The notes under the pieces are model-generated. The model was not told where the DNA came from and searched no databases. It saw only the letters and a list, made by a program, of their open reading frames with translations. A stretch of DNA of 64,000 bases, taken from the NCBI GenBank assembly GCA_025055675.1, contig JANWWT010000005.1, positions 62,001 to 126,000 of the forward strand. The letters are read 5' to 3'. Source of the DNA: Pseudanabaenaceae cyanobacterium SKYG29 (GTDB lineage: Bacteria > Cyanobacteriota > Cyanobacteriia > Pseudanabaenales > Pseudanabaenaceae). The translations under genes and the position numbers were made by a program. Positions 21,399 to 47,903 of this stretch are shown here, in pieces. Every line of letters begins with the position of its first letter. Within the stretch, counting starts at the first letter, position 1.

Positions 21399-21947
21399 TC
21401 AGTTCTTAAAAACGGTGAGAGTGCCAAACAAAGGGGACACGATCGCTTCTCCTAGGCTATATTCTTGCAGGTCATACCACCGATCGGTGTTCACCAGAAC
21501 AGAAATTTTGTTGTCCAGAGGGTCAACAAGCCAGTATTCAGGAATATCACGGACGGCATATTCACTGCGTTTGGTGCGATAGTCAATGTTTTGGGTGGAG
21601 GGGCTAACAACTTCCACAACTAGTAAGGGATAGCGATCGAGGTCAAGTACGGCTGGTTTGTCCTGTAGATATTCCCAGTCTGATAGTTGCATCACAATCA
21701 AATCAGGGATCCTCACTGTGTCCGACCCACAACGTACGCCCACATCCCACACAGCAATGTATGGTAAGTTAGCTTTCTCAATTTCAGCATCCAACAGTTT
21801 CTCTAGCAGCTTAATTAGCCTGCCGTGATTACCAGTGGGCAACGCCATCGGGAATAATTCTCCCTCCACTAGTTCGTAATGGGTATCTGTGCCATCACTG
21901 TAGTCTAGGTATTCGGCGAAAGATAGGCGCTTGCTAGTGGTAACCAT
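21399..21947 (-). CDS. Uma2-family putative endonuclease
   Basis: 182 residues, standard family length. Motifs: LSFAEYLDY, YELVEGELFPMALP, VRIPDLIVM, LLVVEVVSPSTQNIDYRTKRSEYAVRDIPEYWLVDP, covering the Asp and Glu of the putative nuclease core. Complete, unlike the copy at 16 kb. Its ATG is 1 nt after the stop of the coiled-coil membrane gene, so it belongs to the VWA operon. Confidence 0.88.
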   Translation of the reverse strand: MVTTSKRLSFAEYLDYSDGTDTHYELVEGELFPMALPTGNHGRLIKLLEKLLDAEIEKANLPYIAVWDVGVRCGSDTVRIPDLIVMQLSDWEYLQDKPAVLDLDRYPLLVVEVVSPSTQNIDYRTKRSEYAVRDIPEYWLVDPLDNKISVLVNTDRWYDLQEYSLGEAIVSPLFGTLTVFKN

Positions 21948-21948
21948 T

Positions 21949-22677
21949 TCAATTCATTAGCATTGTCACATTCTCTTGGCAGGAGTTAAGTTGATCACTA
22001 AGTTCTCGTAATTCTAGTAGCTCAGAAGTGCTTTTGGTACCGATCGTGCGAATTTTATTCTGCATTTTCTGCAATAGACCTCCTGATTCCGTTACCCATT
22101 CCATTAAGTTGGCAATTTGAATTTGGCGGGAATCTTGCCCTTCTCTAGCTAATTCTAGATTGTGGCGCAGTGTTCTTTCTAGGCTAGCTAATTTTGCTCT
22201 CCCTGCTTCTGATGTGACAGTATTTTGCTTAGCTATCACCTGCCGTAGTTGCTCTTCTATCTCGGCTACCGATAACATAACCTCGTTTTTGCCCAACCGC
22301 CGCGCAATTTCATCAATCTTGTAGGGCAATTCCATCACCCGATCGCAGGCTGCCTGAATCGCTACTAGTAAATCTATCTGGTCAGGTTCAGTTAGCAGAG
22401 TAGCCGCTTCCCGCCGCATAGATTCTGCCCTCTGCACCAAGGCAACTGCCGATCGTTTGATTGCCATTACTTCCTGCTCTAGTTTGGGGTCACCCAAGTT
22501 CAATCGTTCTGGCTCCCTAGCTTTGAGAAAGCCAGCTCCCCCCGTAGCCACAAGGGCAGCGATCGGGATCATCACTACTGGTGGTATACGCCCAAATCTT
22601 CCTCCCAGTACTAATAGAATCCCTGCCGCCAGTACTACCAGAGGGTATTCCAGGGGATTAGCTAGCTTCCATCTCAT
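21949..22677 (-). CDS. Membrane-anchored coiled-coil protein of unknown function
   Basis: 242 residues. Two membrane helices lie at about 12-27 and 33-50 with a very short loop. The remaining ~190 residues are helical and charged with heptad-like spacing (VMAIKRSAVALVQRAESMRREAATLL, LASLERTLRHNLELAREG), so a cytoplasmic coiled coil is likely. No enzyme motif is seen. It starts 3 nt after the stop of the SBP-VWA lipoprotein gene and ends 1 nt before uma2, so it is tightly coupled to both. I do not recognise a characterised family. Confidence 0.75.
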   Translation of the reverse strand: MRWKLANPLEYPLVVLAAGILLVLGGRFGRIPPVVMIPIAALVATGGAGFLKAREPERLNLGDPKLEQEVMAIKRSAVALVQRAESMRREAATLLTEPDQIDLLVAIQAACDRVMELPYKIDEIARRLGKNEVMLSVAEIEEQLRQVIAKQNTVTSEAGRAKLASLERTLRHNLELAREGQDSRQIQIANLMEWVTESGGLLQKMQNKIRTIGTKSTSELLELRELSDQLNSCQENVTMLMN

Positions 22678-29855: not shown

Positions 29856-32800
29856 ATGGCTATCAATCCCGAAATTCGCGACCAGGCGTACCAGTTCTTC
29901 TGTCAAGAGGCAACAGAGTTTTTACATACGATCGAGGAAGGTTTACTTACCCTCAGAAACGATCGGAGCACTGCCAATGTCCATAGAATCATGCGGGCAG
30001 CCCATTCCATCAAGGGGGGAGCAGCTAGTGTCGAACTAGAAGGGATTAAGAAAATTGCTCACAAATTGGAAGATGTCTTTCGTGCTCTTTACAACTGGGA
30101 GGGGGAAATCGATCGGGACATGGAAGAACTTCTCCTGCATGCCTTTGATGCCCTGCGTACTCCCTTAATGGCACAAATCCAAACGGGCACATACAATGAA
30201 GCCGATGCTCTTGCCCATGCCCAACCCATCTTTGAGACCCTAGAAGCCCTCCTAGGCGAAAGTCTGCATCAGGTAGACAAAGCTCTGCCGACGGCGGCAG
30301 AATTGGGAGTAGATATTGCGGCAGTAGTCTTTAGTGGGGATGTGCAACAGGGCATTGAGCACCTAGAGAGTGTGTTGCAAGACCCCCAAGCAGAGGTAGT
30401 AGGCGAATTTCGGGCAGAAGCAGAGGTATTTGCTGGCATTGGCGAGTTGTTGAATCTACCAGGGTTTACCGCCATTGCCCGGGCGGTCTTAGCAGCTATC
30501 AATCAACATCCCCAGCACATCCGAGAGATTGCCCCCATTGCTATTGCTAATTTCCGTGCTGCCCAAGCCCAAGTTTTAGCAGGAGACCGCCAAGAGGGGG
30601 GAAAGCCCAGCCCTGACCTACTGCGATGGACGGAATCACCAGCAGCCCTCCAGACGGAAAAAAAAGACCGCCTCCTGCCCTCGGAAGAATTAAACTTTGA
30701 CAGTTGGCTAGAAGAAGACTTTACCCTACCGATCGAGCCTATGGAGGACAATCTGGTGGCGGATTTGGGGGAGTGGCTGACAGAAGAAGAAGAATCAACT
30801 GTCTTGCAGGATTTGACAGAGATTACTAGCGACATAGAGGACTGGCTACCAGAGGGGGGAGAGGAGGAAGAAGTCACCATCATTCAAGTAGCTTCTACCA
30901 GCAGTGATGCAGAGAATTGGCTGACAGAAGAAAAAGCAAGGACAGCGCCTATAGCAAGGCGAGAACCTGCTCCCCAGATAGAACCCCAGAGAGCTGAAAA
31001 AACTGCCCCCGATCGTACACCTGCCCAGATGACAGAAGTGATCAGGGTAGATTTGCAGAGGTTAGAGCGGTTGAACAACTTAGTAGGGGAATTAGTGACA
31101 GCGGAAAATGGCACAGAACTACAGCTACAACAATTACAGAGTGCCATCAAACAACTCCAAGAACGCTTTACTATTTTTGAACGACTGAATCGCAATCTGC
31201 AAACCTGGTTAGACCAAAGTCAGAAAATTCAGGTGAGAAATGCCCTGCGCACTCAGGATCAAGAATTTGACCCCCTGCAAATGGACTACTATAGTCCCCT
31301 GTACACCATGATTCAGGAATCTATCGAAGAGATTGCCCAGATGGGGGAAAAGGTACAGGACATTACCCTGGTTGCTCAGGAGGCAAGAAACATTCAACGG
31401 AAAAAGCAACAGACCCTACGGCAGTTAAGAAATGACTTACTATGGGCACGCATGTTGCCTCTGGGGGATATATTGAATCGCTTCCCCCGCATGGTAAGGG
31501 ATTTATCGTTGAAATATCAGAAGGCAGTTAGTTGTCGAGTAGTGGGGGCAAACACCCTAGTGGACAAACAGATGCTCGAAAAACTCTATGACCCCCTGGT
31601 ACATTTAGTGCGCAATGCTTTTGATCACGGTATTGAAAATTCTCCTGCGGAGAGAGCGTCCCTGGGCAAAGCAGAGGAGGGCATGATTGAAATTCGCGCC
31701 TATCACCAGGGTAACCAAACGTTTATTGTAGTACAGGATGACGGCAGAGGAATTGACCCCCAAAAGGTAGTCAGCAAGGCGATTGAAAAGGGAATTATCA
31801 CCCCTGACCAAGCCCAGAGTTTAAGTCAGCAGCAGATTTATGAATTACTCTTTGCCCCTGGCTTTTCCACAGCGGATAAAGTTACCGACCTGTCGGGGCG
31901 AGGGATGGGTATGGATGCTGTCTTGTCCCAAGTGCAGGCCCTCAAAGGTAGTATCACGATCGAGTCGGAGGTAGGGAAAGGAACAGTCTTTACCTTGCGC
32001 TTCCCCCTTACCCTGACGATTAGTAAGTTGTTGATTGCGCGGGTACAGGGTCGCCCGTTGGCAGTGCCCGTGGATTCTCTAGTATCTGTCATTTCCACCG
32101 ACCGATCGGCAATTGAGACAATATGGGGGAAAGAATTCTACCGCTATGACAGAATCTTGGTGCCCATATATCCCAGCCATTTTTTGGGAAGTCATTATCC
32201 GCTCCCCGCTGTTGTCAGTAAAGTGCAGGCAGGTTTAGATTTGCCTGAAGACACTGTACCGTTACTGTTGATTGCCCTGGGCAACAGAACGATCGCCTTG
32301 CTGGCAGAACAGATCATTACCGAACAGGAACTGGTGATCAAGCCCTTTAGTCCCCTCATTCCCCATCCCAGTTATTTTTATGGTTGTACGATTTTGGGGG
32401 ATGGTTCACTGGTACCTGTCCTGGATACTGCTGCCCTCATCAGTCAGTGGTTAGAAACCCAGGGCAGTGCTCCCGCGGTTACGCCAGTTACTGTTCCTAC
32501 TGTGAGCTTTGCGGTTGGCGAGTCTCACCGAGCGGCTGTGCCCACGATTTTAGTGGTTGATGATTCTCTCACTGCCAGACAAACTTTGGCTCTAACCCTA
32601 GAACGGGCAGGTTATGAGGTGGTGCAAGCGGGGGATGGACAAGAGGCGCTGGACAAGTTGAAAAAACACAACATCAAAGCTGTCTTTTGCGATGTGGAAA
32701 TGCCTGTGATGAATGGATTTGAATTTTTAACTAACTGTCGCAAAGAATACAGTGCCGATCGGTTACCTGTAATCATGCTCACCTCCAGGGCGGGGGAACG

Positions 32801-32921
32801 CCATCGGGGCATTGCCAAGTTACTAGGGGCTAATCACTACCTGACCAAACCATTTTTGGAAGGAGATTTGTTGCAAACTCTACAGAATTGTCTGTCCCAA
32901 ACTGCCCTAGTCTCTACCTAG
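29856..32921 (+). CDS. CheA-type hybrid histidine kinase (Hpt-HATPase-CheW-REC)
   Basis: 1021 residues. Order: Hpt domain with phosphorylated His50 in AHSIKGGAAS; an acidic low-complexity linker (about 255-385); dimerisation and HATPase domains with the N box LVHLVRNAFDHGIE and G boxes DDGRGID and GRGMGMD; CheW-like domain; C-terminal receiver VVDDSLTARQ with the acceptor Asp in FCDVEMPVMNG. This is the architecture of cyanobacterial PixL/PilL-type kinases that steer phototaxis or type IV pili. It lies outside the chemosensory locus at 35-48 kb and on the other strand. The 3' end overlaps the convergent livG-type gene by 15 nt. Confidence 0.92.
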   Translation: MAINPEIRDQAYQFFCQEATEFLHTIEEGLLTLRNDRSTANVHRIMRAAHSIKGGAASVELEGIKKIAHKLEDVFRALYNWEGEIDRDMEELLLHAFDALRTPLMAQIQTGTYNEADALAHAQPIFETLEALLGESLHQVDKALPTAAELGVDIAAVVFSGDVQQGIEHLESVLQDPQAEVVGEFRAEAEVFAGIGELLNLPGFTAIARAVLAAINQHPQHIREIAPIAIANFRAAQAQVLAGDRQEGGKPSPDLLRWTESPAALQTEKKDRLLPSEELNFDSWLEEDFTLPIEPMEDNLVADLGEWLTEEEESTVLQDLTEITSDIEDWLPEGGEEEEVTIIQVASTSSDAENWLTEEKARTAPIARREPAPQIEPQRAEKTAPDRTPAQMTEVIRVDLQRLERLNNLVGELVTAENGTELQLQQLQSAIKQLQERFTIFERLNRNLQTWLDQSQKIQVRNALRTQDQEFDPLQMDYYSPLYTMIQESIEEIAQMGEKVQDITLVAQEARNIQRKKQQTLRQLRNDLLWARMLPLGDILNRFPRMVRDLSLKYQKAVSCRVVGANTLVDKQMLEKLYDPLVHLVRNAFDHGIENSPAERASLGKAEEGMIEIRAYHQGNQTFIVVQDDGRGIDPQKVVSKAIEKGIITPDQAQSLSQQQIYELLFAPGFSTADKVTDLSGRGMGMDAVLSQVQALKGSITIESEVGKGTVFTLRFPLTLTISKLLIARVQGRPLAVPVDSLVSVISTDRSAIETIWGKEFYRYDRILVPIYPSHFLGSHYPLPAVVSKVQAGLDLPEDTVPLLLIALGNRTIALLAEQIITEQELVIKPFSPLIPHPSYFYGCTILGDGSLVPVLDTAALISQWLETQGSAPAVTPVTVPTVSFAVGESHRAAVPTILVVDDSLTARQTLALTLERAGYEVVQAGDGQEALDKLKKHNIKAVFCDVEMPVMNGFEFLTNCRKEYSADRLPVIMLTSRAGERHRGIAKLLGANHYLTKPFLEGDLLQTLQNCLSQTALVST

Positions 32922-34530: not shown

Positions 34531-34568
34531 TGATACCTCAACTACTGCCGCCCTCTATTTTATACAGA

Positions 34569-34700
34569 TTGACATACCCCCGCCCTAAAGGGCAGAGATT
34601 CTTGCCCTTGGTTTATCGACAACACTTACAAGTTCTAGTGTTCGGCGAGCTCACTCGAGCCGAGGTGTTTATCTCCCCATCAGTCGGCGAGGCAGTTCCC
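34569..34700 (-). mobile_element. Right-end remnant of an IS605/IS1341-type element, with hairpins
   Basis: Minus strand 34605-34569 reads GAATCTCTGCCC-TTTA-GGGC, then GTATGTCAA, the usual right end of IS605/IS1341 elements (hairpin, then TGTCAA). The intact element at 61413 ends the same way. At 34643-34662 is a hairpin (CGGCGAGCTC/GAGCCG) shared with the intact element's far end at 62653-62672. This is a decayed element, continuous with the tnpB fragment next to it. Confidence 0.7.
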
Positions 34701-35002
34701 TTTTGCCTAAAAGTACTCAATCCCCTCTTTCCAGAGAAAAGCAGACTAGGTAAATTTACACTACCACCATACTGTTTTTTCTTGAAGACTGGATAAACTG
34801 AAGGCGCCTAATTGTCTGTTGTAACAGCACGCAACCTACCTCTCAGTGAGCATGGCTCTGTTCTTGTCGTTCCCACCATGCTTCAGTCCCTATAGCTAGA
34901 GCACGATTATAGACCAATCGGGTACAACTAATAGCCTTCTTGAGCAATACTGCTCGCTCTGGAGTCAGGTAAAAGTGGTACTGGTAGCTTTTTGTGCTAT
35001 GG
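34700..35002 (-). pseudogene. Decayed tnpB (RNA-guided nuclease of IS605/IS1341 group), N-terminal remnant
   Basis: Minus-strand translation from about 34995 gives SYQYHFYLTPERAVLL, then KKAISCTRLVYNRALAIG and EAWWERQEQ, matching residues 5-48 of the intact TnpB at 61454-62611 before a stop. A second piece near 34755-34800 gives PVFKKKQYGGS, matching residues 100-110. The start codon, about 50 residues between the pieces, and the whole RuvC and zinc-finger half are missing. Nothing functional remains. 35003-35059 shows no feature. Confidence 0.85.
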
Positions 35003-35059
35003 TCGACATCGACCCTAATTTTTTCAATGACAAGATGCTGGTTTTGGAGGATGGTTATC

Positions 35060-36103
35060 CTACAAGTAGTTCATAATAAATTGACTGATGGCTTCTATTT
35101 TCAGAGTATGTTGCACTACCCCCAAATCTATAGCTGCTTTGGGCATACCAAAAACCGCACAGCCCTCTTCATCCTGGGCTACTGTAACGCCTCCCGCCAA
35201 GGCAATTGTTTGTAATCCCTGTGCACCGTCATCTCCCATTCCCGTTAATAAAATACCCATGCATGCACTGCCATAATTCAATGCCACCGATCGAAACATG
35301 ACATTTACGGAAGGACAGTGTCTCTCCATTTCATAGGGGGGTGACAGTATAATTTTTCCATATTTAGAAACCTCTAAGTTAAACTGATCGGGAGCATAGT
35401 AAACTATGCCTGGTTGTAATTCTTCCCCCACTTCAGCAATTTTTACTCGTAACTGACACTCCTGATTCATCCAGTTAACTAAGCCATCCAAAAAGCCAAT
35501 GCTAATGTGTTGCGTGCAGAGAATTGGTAAGGGGAAGTCTTTGGGTAATTGGCAAAGAATCTTCCCTACTGCTTGCGGTCCACCTGTAGAAGCGCCGATG
35601 GCAATAATCTTTATTGAGTCATGTTTTTCTGTCTGAATTTTAGGCTGGACTGCCTGTCTAGGAAGAGCACTAGAAGTAGGAGATGGTCGGAGGGGACGGG
35701 TAAAAACTTTCACCCCTGCTAAGATGCGAATTTTTTGCACAATTTCCGATCGATCGTAGTCCTCTAATAACCCTGTTTCTGGTTTAGCTACAACATCAAT
35801 TGCTCCTGCTTCCAATAGCTGAAATACATTTTGTTCTTGCCCTTTACCCACTCCCACACTGATAACTAAAATTGGCTTGGGATAGCGGGACATGAGTTGT
35901 CTAGTTAACTCTAACCCATCCATCCCTTTCATATACAAATCAGTACAAACTACGTCAGGGTTGACCTTAGGGATTTGCAGCAGAGCGTCTATACCGTTAG
36001 TGGCAGTTCCCACTAATTTAATGTCAGGAGCAGAGTCAATGATATTACTAAGAACCTGCAGAGCGATCGGTGAATCTTCTACAACAAAAACCCCGATCGT
36101 CAT
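35060..36103 (-). CDS. cheB: Chemoreceptor glutamate methylesterase CheB
   Basis: 347 residues. The N-terminal receiver has acceptor Asp55 (VVCTDLYMKGMDG) and Lys in VAKPETG. A linker leads to the methylesterase domain with the full catalytic triad: Ser172 (GASTGG), His199 (CTQHI), Asp291 (LTGMGDDG). It removes methyl groups from receptor glutamates when phosphorylated by CheA. Last gene of the chemosensory locus; its start overlaps the stop of the receiver gene by 4 nt (ATGA). Confidence 0.95.
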   Translation of the reverse strand: MTIGVFVVEDSPIALQVLSNIIDSAPDIKLVGTATNGIDALLQIPKVNPDVVCTDLYMKGMDGLELTRQLMSRYPKPILVISVGVGKGQEQNVFQLLEAGAIDVVAKPETGLLEDYDRSEIVQKIRILAGVKVFTRPLRPSPTSSALPRQAVQPKIQTEKHDSIKIIAIGASTGGPQAVGKILCQLPKDFPLPILCTQHISIGFLDGLVNWMNQECQLRVKIAEVGEELQPGIVYYAPDQFNLEVSKYGKIILSPPYEMERHCPSVNVMFRSVALNYGSACMGILLTGMGDDGAQGLQTIALAGGVTVAQDEEGCAVFGMPKAAIDLGVVQHTLKIEAISQFIMNYL

Positions 36104-36510
36104 ACTCTCTTACTAGCTAATACTTTAATTTTAGTGATTAAGGTATCCCGCAATCTTTCGTAGTCCGTAGCTGTACCACTGGTAGGCTTGGGGAAGAAGT
36201 CTAGTGCCCCTGCTTGCATTAAATTGAAGATATTATCAACATCTGTGGGATGCACAGCATTGCTGATGACTAATACTGGACGGGGAAACTGTTGCATCAC
36301 TGCCTTAGTGAACTCTAAACCATCCATATTAGGCATTTGCAAATCTGTACAAATTACATCGGGATTCGTACGGGCAATTACCTGCAATCCCTCTACCCCA
36401 TCTGTTGCTGTACCTACTACTTCCACCTCCCCTGAAGAATTAATCAGCCGTTGGAGAATCTCCAAAGCCACGATCGAGTCTTCAATCAGCACTACCCTAA
36501 TCTTACTCAT
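36100..36510 (-). CDS. Stand-alone CheB-type receiver domain protein
   Basis: 136 residues, one receiver domain with acceptor Asp56 (VICTDLQMPNMDG) and Lys in FFPKPTSG. Its closest visible relative is the receiver of the adjacent CheB (both ...VVGTATDGV/NGI... and DVVCTD/DVICTD), not a CheY. It overlaps cheA upstream and cheB downstream by 4 nt each. It could be a phosphate sink, a competitor for CheB phosphorylation, or an output regulator; no evidence separates these. Confidence 0.9.
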   Translation of the reverse strand: MSKIRVVLIEDSIVALEILQRLINSSGEVEVVGTATDGVEGLQVIARTNPDVICTDLQMPNMDGLEFTKAVMQQFPRPVLVISNAVHPTDVDNIFNLMQAGALDFFPKPTSGTATDYERLRDTLITKIKVLASKRV

Positions 36511-38705
36511 GCAGCTAACCTCCTAATCGTACTTAACAACACACTTTGATCAAAATCACCTTTAGTAATGTAAGCATTAGCACCAGCTTTGAGTCCCCTT
36601 TCTCGGTCTTGGGCTTTAGCAAGGGTGGTGACAAGGATGATAGGAATTCTTGTGTTAGCTGACCTAATTCTTTGGGTCATTTCTATACCGTTGAGGTTAG
36701 GCATTTCTACGTCGGAAACCACCACATCAAATTTGTCCTGCTGAAACTTTTGCAGCCCATCCAACCCATCCACAGCAACAGTCACAAGATAACCTTCCTT
36801 TTCCAAGATACGTCTTAACTGAGTGCGAATCGGCAGAGAATCTTCTACTAGCAAAACTTTGAGGGGTGGCCTCTCTGGTGCTGTAAAACTATCTATGGAA
36901 GAGCAAGACTTACCGCTTAGCAATGCAGATACATTTAGGACATAACAAATACTGCCGTCACTGAGAAGAGTTGACCCTAACAGTTGTGGTGCCTTAACCA
37001 AGCTCACTTCCCGCAGTTGCACTTCTTGATAATCAGTAATGGCTTCTACAATTAAACCCTGCTTACTCTCGTTTGTCTGGACAATGACACAGGGGTAGAC
37101 CTTATGCCTACCGCTACGATGTTGCTGCAAAATATCTGCTAAAAAGCTAACAGGCAGATTCTGCCCTTGCCAAATAATCTGGGGTCGATCGGCTACCATT
37201 ACTACCTCCTCTGGTCGCACTAATAGGGAGGTTACTACATAATCGATCGGTATCCCATAGAAAACTCCGCTGCTCCTGACAACCAAGGTAGGAACAACAC
37301 TGCGGTTAGCTCTTAAAATTAGGCGGAATACACATCCAACTCCCACTTGGGATTCTAATCGAATTTGACCCTGTAAACGATTGATTGCATCCTTTACTAC
37401 GTCTAAACCAACACCTCTGCCAGAAATTTCACTGACCTCTGTTTTAGTAGAAAAGCCTGGACGAAATATGAGACTTTGTATCTCCTCCTTAGACATTAAA
37501 GCGAGTTCAGCAGGAGTAATAATACCTTTTTCTACAGCAGCCCGTCCAATTTTTTCTGTGTCCAGTCCCCGACCATCATCTGTTACCTCAATCAGGATTT
37601 CATTACCCTGCACCTTACCTACCAGGGATATATTGCCTGTAGCAGGCTTACCAAGAGCAACTCTTTCAGCAGGAGACTCTATACCGTGATCAATGGCATT
37701 GCGTAACAGATGGCTGAGGGGAGCTTTGATCTCCTCCAAAATCTTCCGATCGACGAGATTTTCTGCCCCTGTAATGGTGAAATTCACTTCTTTATTTTGA
37801 CTCTTGGCAATGTCTCTGACTGTGCGGGGGAACAAATTGAAAATAGTAGAAAATGGTAGTAGTTGTAACTCTCTAATGTCCTGAGCTAGTTGTTCTGCAA
37901 CCACCCTTAGACGAGTGCTATCATTTTCCAAGTTGGTCTGCAATTTGGGGAGAATTTCCCCTATACGGTTAAGAACAATCTCCTTCTGCTCACTTCTGCC
38001 AAGTATTACTTCTTCCCACAGCTGACTCAGACTACGCACTAGCTCTAATTGTCGACTCAAACGTTGCTGGGTAACTGCTATTTCTCCCGTGTATTGTAAA
38101 AGTGCATCTAGTTCAGATAACTCAACCCGTACTGTATCTAGTTGCTCAGGTTTAACTTCAATTTCAGGGGCAGTAGCAATCGGTTTAGTGTCTTTCTCTT
38201 CTTGGATTACCCTTTCCCTCTCCTGCGCTAATGCCAGAAGCGCTGCAAGGTCATCCTCACCTTCCTGAGATAGTTCTGGGACAGGAATTTCTGCTAGGGG
38301 AATCGGAGGAGTTGCTTCACTTTCTCCTAGAACTGCCATCATTTCCGCTGCAATGTGGAACGCACTGACATTGGCTGGTTCACCCGTTACTGCTTCCTGG
38401 GCGATTTTTTTGATAGCATCTAAACCTGTGAACAAGGTCTCAAATACACTAGGAGAAAATCGATGCGTACCTTGCTTAATACCACTGAGAATGTCTTCTA
38501 GGTGATGGGTAAGAGTCTCTGCATCTTTGACTCCCAACATCCGTGAGTCACCCTTCAGGGAGTGGGCGTGTCTTAGCAACTCCTCCAGCTTCTTTTGATC
38601 CTGAGGATTCCTTTCTAGGTGTAATAAGCCCTCCTCCAGCTTAGCTATATGCTCAGCACTAGCTACTTTGTAGAGGGATCGTAATTCCTCATCTTCTATC
38701 ATCAT
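36507..38705 (-). CDS. cheA: Chemotaxis histidine kinase CheA with C-terminal receiver
   Basis: 732 residues. Hpt domain with His48 (RHAHSLKGDSRMLG); dimerisation helices (about 195-280); HATPase with LSHLLRNAIDHGIE, DDGRGLD and GRGVGLDVV; CheW-like domain; C-terminal receiver VEDSLPIRTQ with Asp in VVSDVEMPNLNG. No separate CheY-binding P2 domain is evident; an acidic linker (about 140-195) takes that place. It starts 2 nt after the stop of the third MCP and overlaps the receiver gene by 4 nt. It should phosphorylate its own receiver, CheB, the small receiver and the PatA-like proteins. Confidence 0.94.
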   Translation of the reverse strand: MMIEDEELRSLYKVASAEHIAKLEEGLLHLERNPQDQKKLEELLRHAHSLKGDSRMLGVKDAETLTHHLEDILSGIKQGTHRFSPSVFETLFTGLDAIKKIAQEAVTGEPANVSAFHIAAEMMAVLGESEATPPIPLAEIPVPELSQEGEDDLAALLALAQERERVIQEEKDTKPIATAPEIEVKPEQLDTVRVELSELDALLQYTGEIAVTQQRLSRQLELVRSLSQLWEEVILGRSEQKEIVLNRIGEILPKLQTNLENDSTRLRVVAEQLAQDIRELQLLPFSTIFNLFPRTVRDIAKSQNKEVNFTITGAENLVDRKILEEIKAPLSHLLRNAIDHGIESPAERVALGKPATGNISLVGKVQGNEILIEVTDDGRGLDTEKIGRAAVEKGIITPAELALMSKEEIQSLIFRPGFSTKTEVSEISGRGVGLDVVKDAINRLQGQIRLESQVGVGCVFRLILRANRSVVPTLVVRSSGVFYGIPIDYVVTSLLVRPEEVVMVADRPQIIWQGQNLPVSFLADILQQHRSGRHKVYPCVIVQTNESKQGLIVEAITDYQEVQLREVSLVKAPQLLGSTLLSDGSICYVLNVSALLSGKSCSSIDSFTAPERPPLKVLLVEDSLPIRTQLRRILEKEGYLVTVAVDGLDGLQKFQQDKFDVVVSDVEMPNLNGIEMTQRIRSANTRIPIILVTTLAKAQDRERGLKAGANAYITKGDFDQSVLLSTIRRLAA

Positions 38706-38707
38706 AA

Positions 38708-40063
38708 TTAAATTTGCTCCTTCAATAACGATATGGAATCTGATAACTGCCCCAGAGCTAGTTTTACTTGATTAACACCACTAGCAGACTCCTGTGCCCC
38801 TAGATTAATCGCATTCATTGCTGATACTGCCTGCTGTACTCCTACTGCTTGCTGCTTAGCACTGAGGGTAATCTGTTGGACATTCATAGATATTGTTTGG
38901 GCAGCACTGACGATATTATGGAAAAATTCTAGCGTAATTTGGGCTAGCTGCATGCTCTCTGCCGCTGTTTTTGTTCCCTGGTCTGTAACCATCACAGTTG
39001 AGTTGATGGAGGCTTGAATGTCTTTAACTAAGTCACCAATTTTTTCTGCTGAGGCTTTACTTTGGTCAGCTAGTTTGCGCACCTCCTGGGCTACAACTGT
39101 AAAACCTTTCCCCTGCTCCCCTGCCCTTGCTGCTTCTACCGCGGCATTGAGCGCCAGTATGTTTGTTTGATTGGCAATGTCTGCTACAAGTTGGGAGACC
39201 GCAGAAATCTGGGCTGTTTGCTCACTAAGGTGCACAATTTTTTCTGCAATGGCGGTAACATTGTCCTTAACCAGGCTAATTCCCTGGATAGTTTTCTGAA
39301 CTGACTCACTTCCCGCCTGACACAATTCTAAACTCTTCTGGGCACTACTAGAAGCGGTAACTGCCTGCTCAGCTGATTGACGGGAAGATGCCCCTAGCTC
39401 CTCCATTGTGATGGTGGTTTGGTTAACAGAAACTGCTTGCTGGGAAATTACTTTTTCCTGCTCTACCATAGAACTGGAAATCTGGGCTGCTGTACTCGCA
39501 ATTTCAGCGGTTGTACGCACTAACAACTGTATAATTCCCCTGACAAGCACGATCGTTAAAATTATTGCCCCAAAGACCAAAACTGTGGAGATCAGTTCAA
39601 ATAGCCTCAATCTATTCTCCCGCTTTTTCGCCAAGTCCTCTGCTACTTTCACCGCCCGATCGGTGGTTTCAAAAAAGGACTCACTCAGGGCAAATAATTC
39701 TTTTGGATCAGGGTTAGGTTGGCTAACTAGCTCATCAATGGGACGAAATTCCCTCTGTACCTGTGTCATGATTTCTTGATAGCCTCGATCGTTAATTTTA
39801 GGCAAGCCAAGTTCCCGATCGCCGTTCAGCAATCCGTTGATTCTTTTGTTGGTTCTGTCCTTAAGTTTAGCAATCGTTTCAGGGTTACCACCAAACAACT
39901 TCAACTTGACTAACCTCTGTGTTCCCCCTCGCACTAAGCCTGACTGATTAACTACAGGTGCAATCTCTGTGATACTGTTAGCCAGAATGGTGACAATAAT
40001 TTCAATAATCCCAACAGCTACAATACTACCAACAACTACTGCCCCTTTAGTCTGAACTTTCAT
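38708..40063 (-). CDS. Methyl-accepting chemotaxis protein, PilJ-like sensor, no HAMP
   Basis: 451 residues. First membrane helix about 9-30, second about 155-180. The short periplasmic part begins [18 protein letters not shown], similar to the PilJ/NIT-type sensor of pilus receptors. After the second helix it passes straight into the signalling coiled coil ([22 protein letters not shown]) with no HAMP domain. The CheA-binding tip reads [20 protein letters not shown]. It differs from the other two MCPs mainly in its sensor. A 76-nt gap separates it from the MCP upstream. Confidence 0.92.
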
Positions 40064-40139
40064 ATCTCCCAGAACCTCCTAGCATTGTAGTTATTGTTTC
40101 TAACATCTGTTGTAGGTTACAAAAGTAGTGAAGATAACA

Positions 40140-41618
40140 TTAAATTTGCTCCTTCAGCAATTGTGCCGACTCCGATAGTTGCTGGATAGCTGATTTGACT
40201 TGCGCCACACTGGCACTAGCTTCTTTCGCTCCCAAGTTAATCGCATTCATCGCCGACACTGCTTGTTGGACTCCCACCGCCTGTTGTTTGGCACTAAGGG
40301 CTATTTGCTGGGTACTGACCGCAATCGTTTCTACTGCCTTTACCAAGTTTTCAAACGCCCGCAAAGTCTCCTGGGCTAGTCGCATACTCTCATTGGCTGT
40401 CTTTGTCCCTTGATCAGTCACCATTACAGACGAATTGATCGAAGATTGGATTTCTCTGATGAGATTGCTGATTTTCTCGGCGGATGCCTTACTCTGGTCT
40501 GCCAGTTTACGTACTTCTTGAGCTACAACACCAAAACCCTTACCCTGCTCCCCTGCTCTAGCGGCTTCTACTGCAGCATTCAAAGCGAGAATGTTGGTCT
40601 GATTGGCAATGTCGGCCACCAGGTCAGATACTGTGGAGATCTGGGCAGTTTGTTCACTCAGTTGCACAATCTTCTCAGCGATCGATGTCACCGTATCTTT
40701 GACTGCAATGATACCTTGTAGTGTCCTCTGTACTGATTCGCTACCTGTATTACACAACTCCAAGCTTTTCTGAGCAGTGGAAGAAGAGGCAATGGCTTGT
40801 TCAGCAGACTGACGGGAAGAAGCTCCCAACTCCTCCATTGTAGTTGTAGTCTGATTGACAGAGACAGCCTGTTGTGAGATGACTTTTTCCTGCTCTGCCA
40901 TAGAAGCAGCAATCTGGGAAGTAATGCTGGCAAATTCTGCCACTGTTTTGTTGGTACCTTGGGCAATCGACTGAACTATAAGAACAGCCATCACTACACC
41001 AATCAGGATAGTTAGTATGAGGGCTGACAGTGCGTAATAAATAGTAAGATTAGCACTACGCACTACTAAATTTCGCTTAGATGTGTAGTTTTCTCGCGCT
41101 AGATTGGCAAGTTCGTCTGCAACTCTTCTAGTATCAGCTGCCAAGCTTTCCCTCTCATCTGAGTACCATAAATTTTCTGCTTCTGCCTTTTTACCAGTGG
41201 TTAATAGTTGGATGAACCGATCGTTAAGTTCCTGATTTTTGGCAAGTAGATTCTCTAGCTCCCTATACTTAGTTTCTATCACGGTGAAGTTCAGCAAGTT
41301 AGGTCTTGAGTCGACAATCTGTTGTATCTTAGCTAGATGGTCTCGTTGAACTTTGTTAAATTGGTCAATCCTTTCCACAGAAGTTGTTCGTTTGCCAGCC
41401 GCTAATAATAACTCAGCTAACTCGTAGTTAATAGCAGTGCCAGTTACTTGTGTCGCAAGTGACTCCTCAACCAACTGTTTACTCTGGTCTCTTTCCTGCC
41501 GATACCTGTTAGTATTCCTTGTTTCGTAAAAAACTAGGACTGTTGCAACTATAGATATAGCAATAGGGATAGAGTAGGCTACCAGAAATTTGCCCCTCAA
41601 TTTGAGACGATTAAGCAT
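40140..41618 (-). CDS. Methyl-accepting chemotaxis protein, four-helix sensor, no HAMP
   Basis: 492 residues. Membrane helices at about 10-28 and 192-215 enclose a helical periplasmic domain of ~160 residues (4HB/CHASE3-like by pattern: [28 protein letters not shown]). The signalling domain follows directly, without HAMP, and is nearly identical to that of the two neighbours ([33 protein letters not shown]). It ends LLKEQI like the next MCP, with no NWETF-type tether for CheR. Ligand unknown. Confidence 0.93.
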
Positions 41619-41649
41619 AGGCTATTGTTGTAACTCCCTTCATCAACAC

Positions 41650-43128
41650 CTAAATCTGATCCCTGAGAAATTGAGCTGATTCTGACAGTTGTTGGATAGC
41701 TGCCTTGACCTGGGCTACACTGGCACTGGCTTCTTTCGCCGCCAAATTGATGGCATTCATGGCAGACACTGCTTGCTGCACTCCCACTGCCTGTTGCTTC
41801 GAACTCAAGGCTATCTGCTGCGTGTTCATTGCGATCGTCTCCACTGCCTTCACTATGCTCTCAAACGCCTGCAACGTCTCCTGGGCTAGTCTCATACTTT
41901 CATTGGCTGTCTTTGTCCCCTCATCCGTCACCATCACTGTCGAGTTGATGGAAGACTGTATTTCTCTAATCAGATGGCTAATTTTGTCTGCGGATGCCTT
42001 GCTCTGGTCTGCCAGTTTGCGTACTTCCTGGGCTACGACAGCAAAGCCTTTGCCTTGCTCCCCTGCTCTGGCGGCTTCTACTGCTGCATTCAAAGCGAGA
42101 ATATTGGTCTGATTGGCGATGTCGGCTACCAGGTCAGATACTGTGGAGATCTGGGCGGTTTGCTCGCTCAGGTGGACAATTTTGTCTGCGATTGCCGTGA
42201 CCTTATCTTTGACTGTGCTGATGCCCTGGAGGGTTTTGTTGACGGAATCACTGCCTGTGTGGCAGAGTTCCAAGCTCTTTTGGGCGTTGGTAGAGGAGGC
42301 GATAGCTTGTTCAGCAGACTGACGGGAAGAGGCTCCCAACTCCTCCATCGTGGTTGTGGTTTGGTTGACAGATACAGCTTGCTGAGAGATAACTTTCTCC
42401 TGCTCTGCCATAGAAGCAGCAATCTCAGAGGTGATACTAGCAAGTTCTGTGGTGGTTTTACTAATGCTCCTGGTGACTAACCGAGTAATAAATACACCAG
42501 CTGCAGGGGAAACAAGTACCGTTAGTAACAAACCTAGTAGGGAGAATGTAATGCTGCGATTAAGCGCATTAGTCGTTAGCTGCCGCTTGAACGTTGAAGT
42601 TTCTCGAACTAATTTGTTAATCTCCTCAGTTAAGGATATAATCTGATCAATCAATTGTTGATGTTCAGAAGAAAACCACAACTTAGTTGCTTCTGCGAGT
42701 TTGCCATTGGTAGCTAAATCTAAAGTCCTTTGGCTAACCTGCTTATTCTTCAATATTAGTTCTTCCAAGCTGCGAATTTTATCCTTAACTTGATCAAAAT
42801 TAAGAAGATCAGGTTTAGCTCCAATTATCTCATTCTTCTTGCTTAGTAGTTCTTGTTGCCGTTTTCGTAGTTCATCCACCCGCCTTAGGTTGTCAGACTG
42901 TCGAGCGTTAGACAATAAATACTCGGTGACTTTGTGGTCAATGCTAGTTGTCACAAAACCATCCTCTAGCAGGAGAAACAAGAGATTGTTAGCAGTACGG
43001 CTATCTGTCAGGTACTTACGGGTATTCCTTATCTCCGCAAAAATTAACAGAGTAGAAAGGAAAGCAATAACGATCGGTATGGCATAGCCACTCAAAATTT
43101 TACCCCGTAACTTCAGTCGATCAAACAT
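41650..43128 (-). CDS. Methyl-accepting chemotaxis protein, four-helix sensor, no HAMP (paralogue)
   Basis: 492 residues, the same length and plan as the MCP at 40140: helix about 10-28, helical periplasmic domain, helix about 195-220, then the coiled-coil signalling domain without HAMP. The sensor shares the plan but little sequence ([20 protein letters not shown]...), while the signalling domain is almost the same residue for residue. This points to duplication followed by sensor divergence. It ends FLRDQI. It starts 16 nt after the double-CheW gene stop. Confidence 0.93.
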
Positions 43129-43144
43129 AAGCTACCTCCCTCCA

Positions 43145-44122
43145 CTAGAGCTTACTGAGTACTTCCTGCAAGTTAACAATCGTAATTAATTCGCCTCCAA
43201 GTATAGCGGTACCCATAATTCCCTGTCTAGCTTCTTTGGCAATGTTCACTACTGTTTTATCCACATCAATATCAACTATGCCCCTAATCTCGTCTGTGGC
43301 AACGCCCACGTTTACCTTGTCAGAATGTACCACGATCGCTTTGTTTTTGTTTCGCTCAGTAGTCTTCAGACCCAAGAAGTTACGGATGTTGATAATGGTG
43401 AGGATTTCACTCCGCACATTGACTGTGCCCATCACAAATGGGGGGCTAAATGGAGTAGGGACAGGCTGTTCTAGGACTATAAATTCTCGCACCTCTTCTA
43501 TGGGAAACCCCATCAGTTCATTGTCTATTTCAGCAATAGCAAGGGGAAATTGTTCTCGGCTCTCTTCTATTTTCTGTTGGCTTAGGTTAATGCGCCGTTG
43601 ATAGAATACTGCTTGCTCTTGGGGGGTAGCAGTAGGAGCAAATCGGTTGTAAAAATCCCCTAAATCGTGGCTAACATCGACTGTGGCAACCTCACTCACA
43701 GCCAAAGGCGATCGGATGAGGGTAGCAGGATTGACTAGGGGCAAAACTGTATCACCTACTCTCCCCACACCCATTAGAAAGTTGCTCAGAGGAGGGCTAA
43801 ATGCCTCGCTAAGTTCCTCCGTCCGATCGGGGGTTATCTCCAGAATTTCCGCCACCCGCTCGACAATTACCCCGACAGCCACCCCTTCCACACTAACTAC
43901 TACCAGGTTATCCGTAACTTTACAGCTTGGCTCACCTACCCCCAACCGCTTAGCTAGATGTATTACTGGCAAAGTTTGCCCCCGCCGATCGACTATTCCT
44001 ATAACATCACCAGGAGCATCAGGTAGGGGTGTAATTTCTGGCAGCAGGAGAATTTCTTCCACTATTTCTAGGGGTAATCCATAGGTCTGGGCATGTAACC
44101 CTATTTGTAAATAACTAAACAT
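43145..44122 (-). CDS. Double CheW-domain adaptor protein
   Basis: 325 residues with two CheW-like domains. The first (1-150) has GLPLEIVEEIL, DVIGIVDRRGQTLPVIHL and VVVSVEGVAVGVIVERV. The second (195-325) has FPIEEVREFIVL, FVMGTVNVRSEILTIINI and NVGVATDEIRGIVDID. It should couple the MCPs to CheA; two domains could bridge neighbouring kinase units in an array. It overlaps the 3' end of the PatA-like gene at 44115 by 8 nt. Confidence 0.88.
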   Translation of the reverse strand: MFSYLQIGLHAQTYGLPLEIVEEILLLPEITPLPDAPGDVIGIVDRRGQTLPVIHLAKRLGVGEPSCKVTDNLVVVSVEGVAVGVIVERVAEILEITPDRTEELSEAFSPPLSNFLMGVGRVGDTVLPLVNPATLIRSPLAVSEVATVDVSHDLGDFYNRFAPTATPQEQAVFYQRRINLSQQKIEESREQFPLAIAEIDNELMGFPIEEVREFIVLEQPVPTPFSPPFVMGTVNVRSEILTIINIRNFLGLKTTERNKNKAIVVHSDKVNVGVATDEIRGIVDIDVDKTVVNIAKEARQGIMGTAILGGELITIVNLQEVLSKL

Positions 44123-45212
44123 ATGACCGAATTGCTTCCAGTAGCTCCTCTGGATTAACTGGCTTAGTCAGGTAGCGATTTGTGCCTGCTAAATGCCCCC
44201 TTGCCCGATCGATTAATCCATCTTTTGCTGTCAACATAATCACTGGGGTGTCCTTAAATTTGTTGATCTTGCGAATAGTACGACAGAACTCAAACCCATC
44301 AATTTCAGGCATGGTCACGTCCAGTAAAATCAGGTCAACCTGGGTACGATTGAGAATGCCCAATGCCTCCATGGCATTGGCAGTAGCAATAACTTCATAA
44401 TTTGGGGCAAGGGCTTTACTAAGCATTGAGCGGACGATCGGGCTATCATCTACAACTAAGATTACTGGAAGTGTTTTCAGGGAAACCTGCTTGGTGGCAT
44501 TACAAGTCTCTAGCCAATTTTGCTTGAACCAGAGATGGTATAGGGGAGCTAGGGTAAGTGGGTCTTGGTCTAGGGCTTCAGCAATGTCACCGATCGAGCG
44601 GATACCATCTACCCACCTTTGCAGGTGGCTAAGGGCAGTTTTATTGTCAATTGTTTCTAGTGCACCTGGGCGAACCCTGACTACGGTTTCAGGAGAACTT
44701 ATGACAGGGGCATATTTTTTCCATTTTTCTTGCCGTTGTTTTAGTTGAGTAATTATCTCGGTAATGGCGAAGCCATGGCGATCAACACTGTAAGCAATGT
44801 CTAGGTGCATCTGTGGCTCTGGATAAGCTGTGCAACGATACGGCAATAACCTCTCTAGGACAAGTATAACTTTGGTAAGGATAATTTTCTCTATGTTGTC
44901 CCAGGTGGTAGCACCAGTTTTGACAACCTCCGCTAAGCTTGCGTAAATTGAACCTCCATCCTCTGAAAAATTACCAAAACTAAACTTAATCGACTTACCC
45001 AAAATTTGGTACAGCCGCTTTGGGGTCAGCCTGTCATAATCAGCAAGTGTGAGCTGTCCTTCCTGCCAACTTAAAAAACATTGCCTGTCTATACCCTTAG
45101 CAATTACCCTAGTTGTGCCCGTGTAAGCGCAGGACTGTAGAGCTGATAGTATATCTACTAGGGTGCCAGTCTCTATATACTTTTCCATTTTGTTAGTTAT
45201 TACGTTATACAA
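44115..45212 (-). CDS. PatA-type response regulator (DUF4388-like domain + receiver)
   Basis: 365 residues. The N-terminal part (GTLVDILSALQSCAYTGTTRV, GQLTLADYDRL) is the PATAN/DUF4388-type domain of PatA and PixG. A helical middle follows, then a receiver from about 240: VVDDSPIVRSML, Asp in LILLDVTMPEIDGFEFC, Lys in YLTKPVNP. In the Synechocystis phototaxis (tax1/pix) operon a PatA-type protein is also the first gene. A 92-bp stretch of the receiver (44281-44372) is identical to 45443-45534 in the neighbouring paralogue. Confidence 0.9.
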   Translation of the reverse strand: MYNVITNKMEKYIETGTLVDILSALQSCAYTGTTRVIAKGIDRQCFLSWQEGQLTLADYDRLTPKRLYQILGKSIKFSFGNFSEDGGSIYASLAEVVKTGATTWDNIEKIILTKVILVLERLLPYRCTAYPEPQMHLDIAYSVDRHGFAITEIITQLKQRQEKWKKYAPVISSPETVVRVRPGALETIDNKTALSHLQRWVDGIRSIGDIAEALDQDPLTLAPLYHLWFKQNWLETCNATKQVSLKTLPVILVVDDSPIVRSMLSKALAPNYEVIATANAMEALGILNRTQVDLILLDVTMPEIDGFEFCRTIRKINKFKDTPVIMLTAKDGLIDRARGHLAGTNRYLTKPVNPEELLEAIRSYV

Positions 45213-45270
45213 CCCTCACTGTAATCCTTCCCACCCCACCCCCTCTCAACACACTATACAATGAGAAACG

Positions 45271-46407
45271 TTAATCTTGCAAGTGCTCCCGAATAGCAGC
45301 TAGCAGCTCATCTTGATTGATTGGCTTGGTCAGGTAGCGATTTGTGCCTGCTAAATGCCCCCTTGCCCGATCGATTAACCCATCTTTCGCCGTTAGCATA
45401 ATTACGGGTGTGTCTTTGAACTTGCTGATCTTGCGAATAGTGCGACAGAACTCAAACCCATCAATTTCAGGCATGGTCACGTCCAGTAAAATCAGGTCAA
45501 CCTGGGTACGATTGAGAATGCCCAATGCCTCCATCGCACTACTGGCACAAATCACCTCGTAGTCACTACTGAGAGTCTTGCGTAGCATCGATTGCACGAT
45601 CGGGCTGTCATCTACACTTAGAATCACAGGAACAGTCTTGGTTTTGGTTTCGCTAGGACTAGAGGCGTGGCGAATTTCGATCAAACCTTCCTCCACCCAG
45701 TGGTAGTAGAGGGGAGCTAGTACGAGGGGGTCTTGTTCCAAAGCTTCAGCAATGTCAGCGATCGTGCGCTGTCCGTCTACCCATTTTTCCAGATGTACGA
45801 GCGTAGCTTTGTGGGTAACTGCTTGTAACACACTGTCATGGACAACAGGAATGTCTTCCAGGGAGCGAATCACAGGGGCATACTGTCGCCATTTTTTCTG
45901 CCGCTGGGCTAGTTGCTGCAAGACCTCCTTACAGCTAAAGCGATGTTGACTATCACCAAAACCCAAGTTGATCCTCACGTTGGCTAGCACATCAATAGTA
46001 CAGGCATGAGGCAACAATCTCTCCAGGATAACTAGTACCCGTTGTAAGCAAAATTTCTCTATGTCTTCCCAGGTAATGGCTTTGGTGGACACGATCGTGT
46101 TAAGCACCTCGTAGGTGGAACCTCTGTCCAAGTCAACACGGCGAGACACAAAATCTAAGAGGGAATCAACATAGCCTAGCTTCAGGCTCTTGCCTAGGAT
46201 ATTAACCAAATCTCTGTTTGTGGGGATGTATTGATTGGCAAAGGTTAGATCACCATCCTGCAAGAAACAAAAATAGTGCAAATATTTACTCCCTGTGCAT
46301 TTGCTACTTACCTTGACTGCCCCTGTATACCCACCTTTCTGCAGCTCCAGCAGGGACTTGGTCAGGTTGTTTTCCTTGTGTACCACACTGTTCTCTGCCT
46401 TCGTCAC
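45271..46407 (-). CDS. PatA-type response regulator (paralogue)
   Basis: 378 residues with the same plan as the gene at 44115: DUF4388-like N-terminal domain (KSLLELQKGGYTGAVKV, GDLTFANQYIPT), helical middle (VDGQRTIADIAEALEQDPLVLAPLYYHW) and receiver with Asp in LILLDVTMPEIDGFEFC. The ORF begins with GTG at 46407; the first ATG lies further in. The N-terminal halves of the two paralogues differ much more than the receivers. It is the first gene after a 152-nt gap that holds the candidate promoter of the chemosensory operon. Confidence 0.9.
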   Translation of the reverse strand: MTKAENSVVHKENNLTKSLLELQKGGYTGAVKVSSKCTGSKYLHYFCFLQDGDLTFANQYIPTNRDLVNILGKSLKLGYVDSLLDFVSRRVDLDRGSTYEVLNTIVSTKAITWEDIEKFCLQRVLVILERLLPHACTIDVLANVRINLGFGDSQHRFSCKEVLQQLAQRQKKWRQYAPVIRSLEDIPVVHDSVLQAVTHKATLVHLEKWVDGQRTIADIAEALEQDPLVLAPLYYHWVEEGLIEIRHASSPSETKTKTVPVILSVDDSPIVQSMLRKTLSSDYEVICASSAMEALGILNRTQVDLILLDVTMPEIDGFEFCRTIRKISKFKDTPVIMLTAKDGLIDRARGHLAGTNRYLTKPINQDELLAAIREHLQD

Positions 46408-46462
46408 GAATTTACCCCTAATGATCCTTGTACTCTACACCTTAGAAACTATTCCTAACATT

Positions 46463-46484
46463 TGTCAAGTATATTTGTATACTT
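46463..46484 (-). promoter_or_regulatory. 18-bp perfect palindrome overlapping a TTGACA box, upstream of the patA/che operon
   Basis: AAGTATA-N4-TATACTT at 46467-46484 is a perfect inverted repeat. On the minus strand its last bases run into TTGACA (46463-46468), a consensus -35, about 55 nt before the PatA-like start. No good -10 at 16-18 nt is seen. A repressor bound here would cover the -35. In addition TAAGGGGAAAA occurs twice in the same gap, once just after the cheR stop and once about 45 nt on. Confidence 0.45.
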
Positions 46485-46559
46485 TTTGTAGTCTTATTAC
46501 TCTGTTATTTTCCCCTTATATCTGTTTGACTTAGTTTTATAATTATTTGACTTTTCCCC

Positions 46560-47903
46560 TTAAATTTTACTCTCAGTGATTTGTTGTAGAATAATAAGTT
46601 TAGCTTGCTGTTCGATAGTCACGGTTTTGGCGATGGGGATGATAGCCTGGATAAGGCGTTCTGCTTGGGATTGTTCCCCGTCTTGGAGATGTAGATCAAT
46701 TAAATCAAAGTAGGGGGGAATGTAGTTGGGGTCGATAAAAATCATACGGCGCAGGTATTCTTTGGCTTGCTCCCGATCGCTTTGTTCTTCGGCAATTTGG
46801 GCAAGGAGATGGAGAGCCTCTAGGCAGGCGTGGTCTTCCGCCAAGATTTGTTGACAGATTTTTTGGCTAGCTTGGTATTGACCCTGGTTGGCATAGGCTG
46901 TAGCAACTAGTAGTAATGCTTCTGAGTCTTGGGGGTGGGAAGCTAACCACTCCTGCAGCTGCTCAATTGCCCCTAGATAGTTACCATCTTTTACCATTTG
47001 TTTACCTTTTTGTTTATGATTTTCCGGCAAAACTGGGACAAAAGGTATAGACTGAGTTAATTCATGGGAAATTTTAGTTGTTGGCATGCGGTAAGTGAGG
47101 GATTCGGCATGATTAATTAACTCTAAGGGAGCAATGGCTTGGGCTTGCAATTCTGTGTGTCCTGTGACTAGATATCCCCCTGGTTGCAGTAGATCAATGA
47201 ATTTCTGGACAACAACCTGAATCTTATCGACATCAAAATAAATAAAGACATTACGACAGATGATCAAATCAACATTGCCTCTAGTAAAGAGAGCTAGTTC
47301 ATCTTCTACAAGATTGCACTGGTAAAATTGCACGCCCTGCTTCAAAGATGGCACAACTTCCCACCCCTCCAGGTGCCGACGGAAATATAACGATCGGTAG
47401 TGGTTTTCTACGCCCCTAAATGACCATTCGGAGTAGATACCCCGTTTGGCCTTCTCGATCGCTTGCTGATTGATGTCAACTCCCACTAGGTTTATCTGCC
47501 AGTCCTGTAACTGATAGGGAATTTCTTGCAAAAGAATAGCGAGGGAGTAGACTTCTTCTCCTGTGGAACAACCTGCACTGAGAATGGTCAGTTGTTTTGC
47601 CTGTGCTTTGTTTTGCAGTAGGTCGGGTAGGATTTTTTCTCGTAACAAATTGATTTGTCCTCGATCCCGTAAAAAGTAACTTTCCCCTGTGGTAATTAGA
47701 GTAGCTAATTGGTCCCATTCTGCTTTTGCCTGATTCGATCGCAGTAGGTTGGCGTATTCTTTTTCATCTGTTAGTCCCAGATTTTTGATTCTTTGTCTAA
47801 TCTTTTGCTGCAGGTTGGTTTGGTCTTCCTGACGAATTCTGATGCCTGTCTTTTCCCGAATCAGTTCGACAATCGTGTGCCAACTAGGAGAATTAGGTGC
47901 CAT
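46560..47903 (-). CDS. cheR: Chemoreceptor methyltransferase CheR with C-terminal TPR
   Basis: 447 residues. N-terminal helical domain, then the SAM-binding methyltransferase: TTGESYFLRD, LSAGCSTGEEVYSLAI, VGVDINQQAIEKAKRGIYSEWSFRG, and DLIICRNVFIYFD. From about 305 two to three TPR units follow (YLGAIEQLQEWLASHPQDSEALLLVATAYANQGQY). TPR-tailed CheR proteins are known in systems whose receptors lack the NWETF tether, which fits the MCPs here. It transfers methyl groups to receptor glutamates. It lies upstream of the operon promoter, same strand. Confidence 0.93.
   Translation of the reverse strand: MAPNSPSWHTIVELIREKTGIRIRQEDQTNLQQKIRQRIKNLGLTDEKEYANLLRSNQAKAEWDQLATLITTGESYFLRDRGQINLLREKILPDLLQNKAQAKQLTILSAGCSTGEEVYSLAILLQEIPYQLQDWQINLVGVDINQQAIEKAKRGIYSEWSFRGVENHYRSLYFRRHLEGWEVVPSLKQGVQFYQCNLVEDELALFTRGNVDLIICRNVFIYFDVDKIQVVVQKFIDLLQPGGYLVTGHTELQAQAIAPLELINHAESLTYRMPTTKISHELTQSIPFVPVLPENHKQKGKQMVKDGNYLGAIEQLQEWLASHPQDSEALLLVATAYANQGQYQASQKICQQILAEDHACLEALHLLAQIAEEQSDREQAKEYLRRMIFIDPNYIPPYFDLIDLHLQDGEQSQAERLIQAIIPIAKTVTIEQQAKLIILQQITESKI

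Follow-up and report, generated by a model that had tools for sequence, protein, structure and literature searches.

A chemosensory locus that encodes both the receptor methyltransferase CheR and the methylesterase CheB raises, in a cyanobacterium, the question of where this pair comes from and what it would do there. Receptor methylation usually has no place in explanations of cyanobacterial taxis, since neither enzyme is present in the model strain (PMC4758948). An earlier note on the present DNA started from this premise, which is documented for Synechocystis and with which the control genome of Synechococcus elongatus agrees, giving no match to CheR or CheB while MCP and CheW do match. It took the locus for a Tax operon and predicted receptor methylation and adaptation.

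The locus lies in a window of 64,000 nucleotides (the whole stretch of DNA that was analysed), which belongs to a 2.56-Mb genome in 18 contigs. Between positions 35060 and 47903, the list of open reading frames holds ten consecutive ones on the minus strand, leading from CheR-TPR to CheB, and the ten genes that had been placed on one strand in 12.8 kb are all found there. Their proposed domain content is likewise recovered by Pfam, namely CheR with TPR, two CheW domains in one protein, three MCPsignal proteins, Hpt/HATPase/CheW/REC, a lone REC, and REC-CheB. In the order from cheR to cheB, and including the left neighbour, the features are as follows.

46560..47903, minus strand: cheR-TPR, the first gene (447 aa), a receptor methyltransferase fused to TPR repeats (Pfam CheR 1.1e-47, and TPR)
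45271..46407, minus strand: PatA1, PATAN-receiver response regulator 1 (378 aa, GTG start; REC 8.5e-27)
44115..45212, minus strand: PatA2, PATAN-receiver response regulator 2 (365 aa, TTG start, an internal ATG also being possible; REC 5e-28)
43145..44122, minus strand: double CheW coupling protein (325 aa; Pfam CheW 4e-49, in two stretches)
41650..43128, minus strand: MCP3, transmembrane chemoreceptor without HAMP (492 aa; MCPsignal 4e-39; alignment to Tsr)
40140..41618, minus strand: MCP2, transmembrane chemoreceptor designed as MCP3 (492 aa)
38708..40063, minus strand: MCP1, transmembrane chemoreceptor designed as MCP3, with a different and shorter periplasmic half (451 aa)
36507..38705, minus strand: cheA-REC, hybrid kinase (732 aa; Hpt, dimerisation, ATPase, CheW, and receiver domains)
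36100..36510, minus strand: stand-alone CheB-type receiver (136 aa), with a 4-bp overlap with cheA and with cheB
35060..36103, minus strand: cheB, the last gene (347 aa), receiver and methylesterase (CheB_methylest 3e-58)
34531..35059, minus strand: degenerate IS605-type TnpB N-terminal remnant with stops (HTH_OrfB_IS605 1.5e-11 on a frame fragment), outside the signalling system

Within the locus, genes overlap by 4-8 bp or are separated by 2-152 bp, and the divergent lpxC starts 46 bp upstream of cheR. Transcription from cheR to cheB as a single unit is likely; since promoter and terminator scans of the locus gave no sites above those of shuffled sequence, the limits of the operon rest on the overlaps and short gaps. 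A P2 domain was not found in the 732-aa CheA-REC by domain search. The description of the lone 136-aa receiver as CheB-type is borne out by the NCBIfam models, of which those for CheB match at 4e-33 and those for CheY merely at 4e-10, and orthologues of this receiver are present at the related loci L039, L050, L191, L203, and L207. The ten genes are a seven-gene core enlarged by lineage duplications, because the same-genus relatives G001 and G002 carry one PATAN-REC gene each at the locus, in G001 together with one receptor gene. G002 also has a 77% identical copy of cheR, likewise adjoining lpxC, and an orthologue of PatA1 (84%).

Catalytic and phosphotransfer residues were checked by alignment to the E. 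coli proteins from NC_000913. CheB residues D55, S172, H199, and D292 align with D56, S164, H190, and D286 of E. coli, and by this alignment a phosphorylatable receiver and the Ser-His-Asp residues of a methylesterase are both present. R79, D143, and the SAM motif AGCSTGEE of CheR align with R98, D154, and AAASTGEE of E. coli CheR. H48, N336, D376, and the receiver residue D665 are conserved in CheA, as are the phospho-Asp D309, T339, and K361 in PatA1, D298, T328, and K350 in PatA2, and D56 and K108 in the lone receiver. The residues examined for phosphotransfer, the ATP site, CheB catalysis, and the SAM motif of CheR are all intact, and no sign of decay is seen in them.

The reading favoured here, with a probability of roughly 0.6, is that the locus encodes a self-contained chemosensory array of ACF-like descent, with a methylation-based adaptation loop of its own and with PATAN-receiver proteins as phosphorylated outputs. 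Three HAMP-less transmembrane receptors, coupled via the double CheW, would control CheA-REC. The phosphorylated kinase would transfer phosphate to PatA1 and PatA2, whose near-identical receivers and differing PATAN halves would direct one signal to two effectors, most likely motor proteins of the type IV pilus. It would also phosphorylate CheB, leading to demethylation and deamidation of the receptors, while CheR-TPR would re-methylate them, this methylation being expected in vivo, and a short-term memory would result from the action of both enzymes. Two further receivers, the lone CheB-type one and that on CheA, would probably serve as phosphate sinks or as competitors of CheB. Among these steps, adaptation by methylation appears well supported, and better so than any other, while the coupling to pili is suggested by the PATAN domains. 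That CheR and CheB would serve their own array is argued from the fact that CheR, CheB, receptors, and CheA stay together across many families. Gene content, intact catalytic residues, methylation-site positions, receptor design, and descent are those parts of the scheme that the sequence itself indicates.

The output is considered first. The two genes had been called patA-like, which stands as to their relation to PATAN but not as to the Pfam PATAN model: the N-terminal halves of PatA1 and PatA2 remain below the cut-off of DUF4388 (PF14332), whereas profile-profile comparison by hhalign with a DUF4388-positive PATAN-REC set gave a probability of 94.7% (E 6e-8; negative control, 0.5%). Two locus-linked homologues, at L193 (30.1 bits) and L176 (25.8), exceed the DUF4388 cut-off of 25, and six more matched more weakly. 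The receivers of PatA1 and PatA2 are 98.5% identical over PatA1 residues 295-362 (dS 0.34), and the PATAN halves are 41% identical (dS 1.9); since dS falls locally in the receivers, local gene conversion between the tandem paralogues (44115-46407) is suggested. The two regulators would be read by the same CheA and would have different partners. In Synechocystis, PATAN regulators bind PilB1 or PilC, and the phosphorylated PATAN-REC protein PixG interacts with PilB1 and PilC, with a second receiver, PixH, opposing it (PMC12288463). A role in motility is plausible, given the PATAN-REC output of the locus and the PilB/PilT-type motors of the genome, which encodes two ATPases like PilB and two like PilT. 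Genome size, kin, and a survey of thermophiles (PMC9953108) suggest that the source organism is nearer to a small unicellular thermophile than to a filamentous glider.

The main rival explanation, unlikely as we consider it, keeps adaptation by methylation and has the array control a non-motility output (for instance exopolysaccharide, aggregation, or gene expression), in the manner of Wsp and other ACF systems, with PATAN binding a partner outside the pilus. Although CheR-TPR, CheA-REC, and CheB make up the ACF gene set, in agreement with the CheA tree described below, and CheR-TPR clusters mostly serve alternative functions (PMC3447774), those PATAN regulators for which one review names partners act on the type IV pilus motor (PMC12288463), and such a gene set can control motility too, as is seen with Frz in Myxococcus (PMC3447774). 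The Frz system of Myxococcus xanthus resembles the locus in that a CheR-TPR methyltransferase, FrzF, acts on the receptor and in that non-flagellar surface motility is controlled (PMC3447774). It differs from the locus, in which the receptors are membrane proteins and the output is PATAN-REC. FrzCD is cytoplasmic, and the output protein FrzZ is of the REC-REC type.

Coming back to the favoured array with its own adaptation loop, the receptors should offer sites for methylation. The Tsr sites 297, 304, 311, and 493 correspond by alignment to the positions at which methylation is predicted in MCP3, which are Q249/Q250 (Q249 is the aligned residue and Q250 its neighbour), Q256, E263, and Q473. 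All three window receptors have Glu or Gln at all four positions. Among 47 receptors from related loci, Glx is found there in 83, 94, 91, and 100%, and in 100% at the position of Q250, versus a mean background of 18% over both arms of the same helices. A strict consensus scan, which in the positive control recovered the four known sites of Tsr and the four of Tar and no others, found E263 in MCP2 and MCP3. The receptor glutamate sites that the earlier note had proposed to check are conserved Glx positions, which is positional evidence, and its claim of receptor methylation with adaptation receives support at the sequence level from these frequencies together with the retained key residues of CheR and CheB. 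At three of the four sites the window has Gln, which CheB would have to deamidate. Since some of these positions are Glx in PixJ-like receptors of the window genome too, the presence of sites has little power to tell receptors with linked CheR/CheB from those without; for the same reason, and because Glx-rich coiled coils may be conserved for packing, site conservation alone is no proof of methylation. An experimental demonstration of methylation in any cyanobacterial receptor was not found in the literature.

The design of the receptors is uniform. Relative to Tsr, each arm is extended by two heptads (14 residues), which calls for a 40H-like class with 20 heptads per arm; by this naming, we take Tsr to be of the 36H class and the window receptors to be of the 40H class. 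From TM2 to the tip, 114-139 residues are counted in 47/47 receptors, compared with 153 in Tsr, whose arms are shorter and which includes a HAMP domain; because the distance is that short despite the longer arms, there is no room for HAMP in any of the 47. Pfam gave no HAMP match in the three window receptors; among other receptors of the same genome, two have a clear HAMP domain, one stays just below the cut-off, and the GAF-rich receptor of 1488 aa gives no match. AlphaFold models of MCP3 and PatA1, computed from the window sequences alone, are poor (mean pLDDT 54), and that of MCP3 has, at this low confidence, one continuous helix over residues 154-288, in keeping with the absence of HAMP. 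As many as 43 of the 47 receptors end exactly 151 residues past the tip, without a pentapeptide tail. MCP2 and MCP3 are 85% identical in their signalling halves and 36% in their periplasmic halves. Nothing suggests light as the input, because the periplasmic region of the three window receptors is short and helical only and Pfam finds no GAF or other photoreceptor domain in them. Compared with the CheRB-Tsr/Tar system of E. coli, the locus has the CheB active-site and phosphorylation residues, the CheR SAM motif, and Glx at the four Tsr sites in common, whereas its receptors are two heptads longer per arm and have neither HAMP nor an NWETF tail, its CheA is a hybrid, and its CheR carries TPR.

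A second rival holds that CheR and CheB act without classical adaptation, either in a long-term setting of receptor activity or mainly by modifying the receptors of other arrays. It would be compatible with receptors that have no C-terminal pentapeptide tether, with the methylation of extra sites by FrzF, a CheR-TPR protein, once its TPR is removed, so that TPR may restrain activity (PMC3447774), and with a second CheR/CheB pair in the genome, but is made improbable by the mentioned cohesion of CheR, CheB, receptors, and CheA. The second CheR/CheB locus is situated elsewhere in the window genome. It is composed of CheR-TPR, CheW, and CheB, with a response regulator of the receiver-SpoIIE (PP2C phosphatase) type (G000:C1:979934-983790 (L036) and L215:4649-9746); in the window genome, a distance of about 850 kb separates the MCP, CheW, and CheA of this system from it, whereas in G002 they are contiguous with it (L048:6828-15853). 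A solo CheA-REC of 1021 aa, which is of the Tax lineage, is encoded at 29856-32921 on the plus strand, 2 kb from the locus, with no chemosensory genes adjoining; it probably has its partners at another place, of which the group of PATAN-REC, REC, and CheW in L219 is an example.

As regards descent, a tree of the CheA core from 51 proteins places the locus CheAs in one clade (99/98) inside an ACF-like group (98/91), while the Tax-type CheAs of the window genome fall into another group, together with the second system (98/93). The Tax lineage in this tree is represented by three CheAs, all from the window genome, and the ACF-like comparison CheAs were labelled by gene content, that is, by CheR-TPR/CheB clusters of other phyla. 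In a wider CheA tree, the Tax CheAs are on long branches, which makes the exact root less sure. CheR-TPR/CheB clusters with the same core order and with other response regulators at the end occur in Syntrophales, Nitrospirota, Nitrosospira, Desulfomonile, Chloroflexota, and others. Such clusters have been assigned to the ACF class on the basis of a CheR-TPR accompanied by multidomain response regulators (PMC3447774), and this combination is present at the locus. The arrangement of CheR-TPR, a CheW pair, transmembrane MCP, CheA-REC, and CheB, with multidomain response regulators, is that of Wsp-like ACF clusters (PMC3447774), albeit with the CheW pair fused, PATAN-REC instead of GGDEF and the like as output, and receptors without HAMP.

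The Tax/Pix gene set of PATAN-REC, CheW, MCP, and CheA-REC is present at the locus as well. The Tax1/Pix system of Synechocystis (PixG-PixH-PixI-PixJ-PixL) is like the locus in CheW, receptor, CheA-REC, PATAN-receiver regulator, and a second receiver possibly opposing the first (PMC12288463, PMC5812497). It differs in having no CheR/CheB (PMC4758948) and in that PixJ is a photoreceptor-MCP, and the locus CheA is of another lineage than the GAF-MCP-linked CheA of the same genome. An ordinary Tax/Pix-type operon that retained an ancestral CheR and CheB, lost in Synechocystis, as implied by the term Tax operon in the earlier note, would explain the shared PATAN-REC output and CheA-REC architecture, but with the locus CheA in the ACF-like lineage, apart from the Tax-type CheAs of its own genome, it is disfavoured by the CheA trees, with the reservation as to their root, and is regarded as highly improbable.

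A concatenated tree of CheA and CheB rejects a single clade for the family of the window genome (p-AU 1.7e-73) and joins its genus with genomes of two other families. At 0.448, the GC content of the locus is below that of the remaining window (0.495); GC3 is low as well, and the transitions at the edges are sharp. At the left border of this GC-poor block lies the TnpB remnant (34531-35059), possibly a scar of mobility; a search of plasmids with the left-border DNA gave no match. Because the tree rejects vertical descent within the family, and because of the sharp-edged GC-poor block and the TnpB remnant, lateral acquisition is favoured, and lateral spread appears likely; it would have occurred before the genus split, since the lpxC junction is common to the window genome and G002. 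Ancient paralogy with subsequent losses may account for the distribution instead. Another GC-poor stretch (0.44) is found in the window at 16001-22000.

The distribution of the locus was surveyed with a CheB profile against 386 sampled genomes of the phylum at a threshold of 490 bits. CheB of the locus type was found in 41/386 genomes from 19 families, each above 490 bits, the next class reaching at most 331 bits. At the 47 loci inspected, CheA-REC is nearby in 41, MCP in 33, CheW in 31, and CheR in 26; CheW has at least 300 aa, i.e., double length, in 29, and the full set of CheR, CheB, CheA-REC, CheW, and MCP is found in 25, several loci being cut by contig ends. The exact order cheR-TPR, PATAN-REC, CheWW, MCP, cheA-REC, receiver, cheB recurs at L191 and L203, and at L207 it matches from PATAN-REC through cheB, with CheR elsewhere in that genome. 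Uniqueness of the locus is ruled out by the 41 genomes with related CheB and the 25 complete loci. A Magnetococcales MAG scaffold (L064) carries a locus of cyanobacterial type (CheB 48%, double CheW, 486-aa receptor), which may be a misbinned contig or a transfer.

Whether identical loci have already been described has to be answered in two parts. A survey of 2012 covered CheR-TPR clusters of cyanobacteria (PMC3447774), and the CheB of one strain has been tabulated (PMC9953108); the operon and its function are undescribed in the literature found. In that table, which covers 17 thermophilic cyanobacteria, CheB is listed only for PCC 6715 (Thermosynechococcaceae) and Leptothermofonsia E412 (PMC9953108, Table 5), and the window genome would, judging from size and kin, be of the same general kind as PCC 6715. 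Searches of an open-access library gave no description of the operon, its separate lineage, PATAN output, receptor design, or function.

As this locus shows, the model systems do not stand for every cyanobacterial lineage. The adaptation of prokaryotic light responses to the background intensity has been described as little understood (PMC5812497). The locus supplies genes, receptors, and residues for testing temporal sensing and adaptation in a cyanobacterium, and its family offers consistent HAMP-less transmembrane receptors with sites that can be probed. A wider proposal, tentative and in its entirety rather doubtful, is that a laterally spread module which descends from ACF systems, and which combines HAMP-less receptors with a complete CheR/CheB memory, is wired to type IV pili via PATAN in about one-tenth of cyanobacteria. 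If this were true, such cells could orient themselves by a temporal comparison of signals, whereas Synechocystis, which does without CheR and CheB, is established to sense the direction of light directly.
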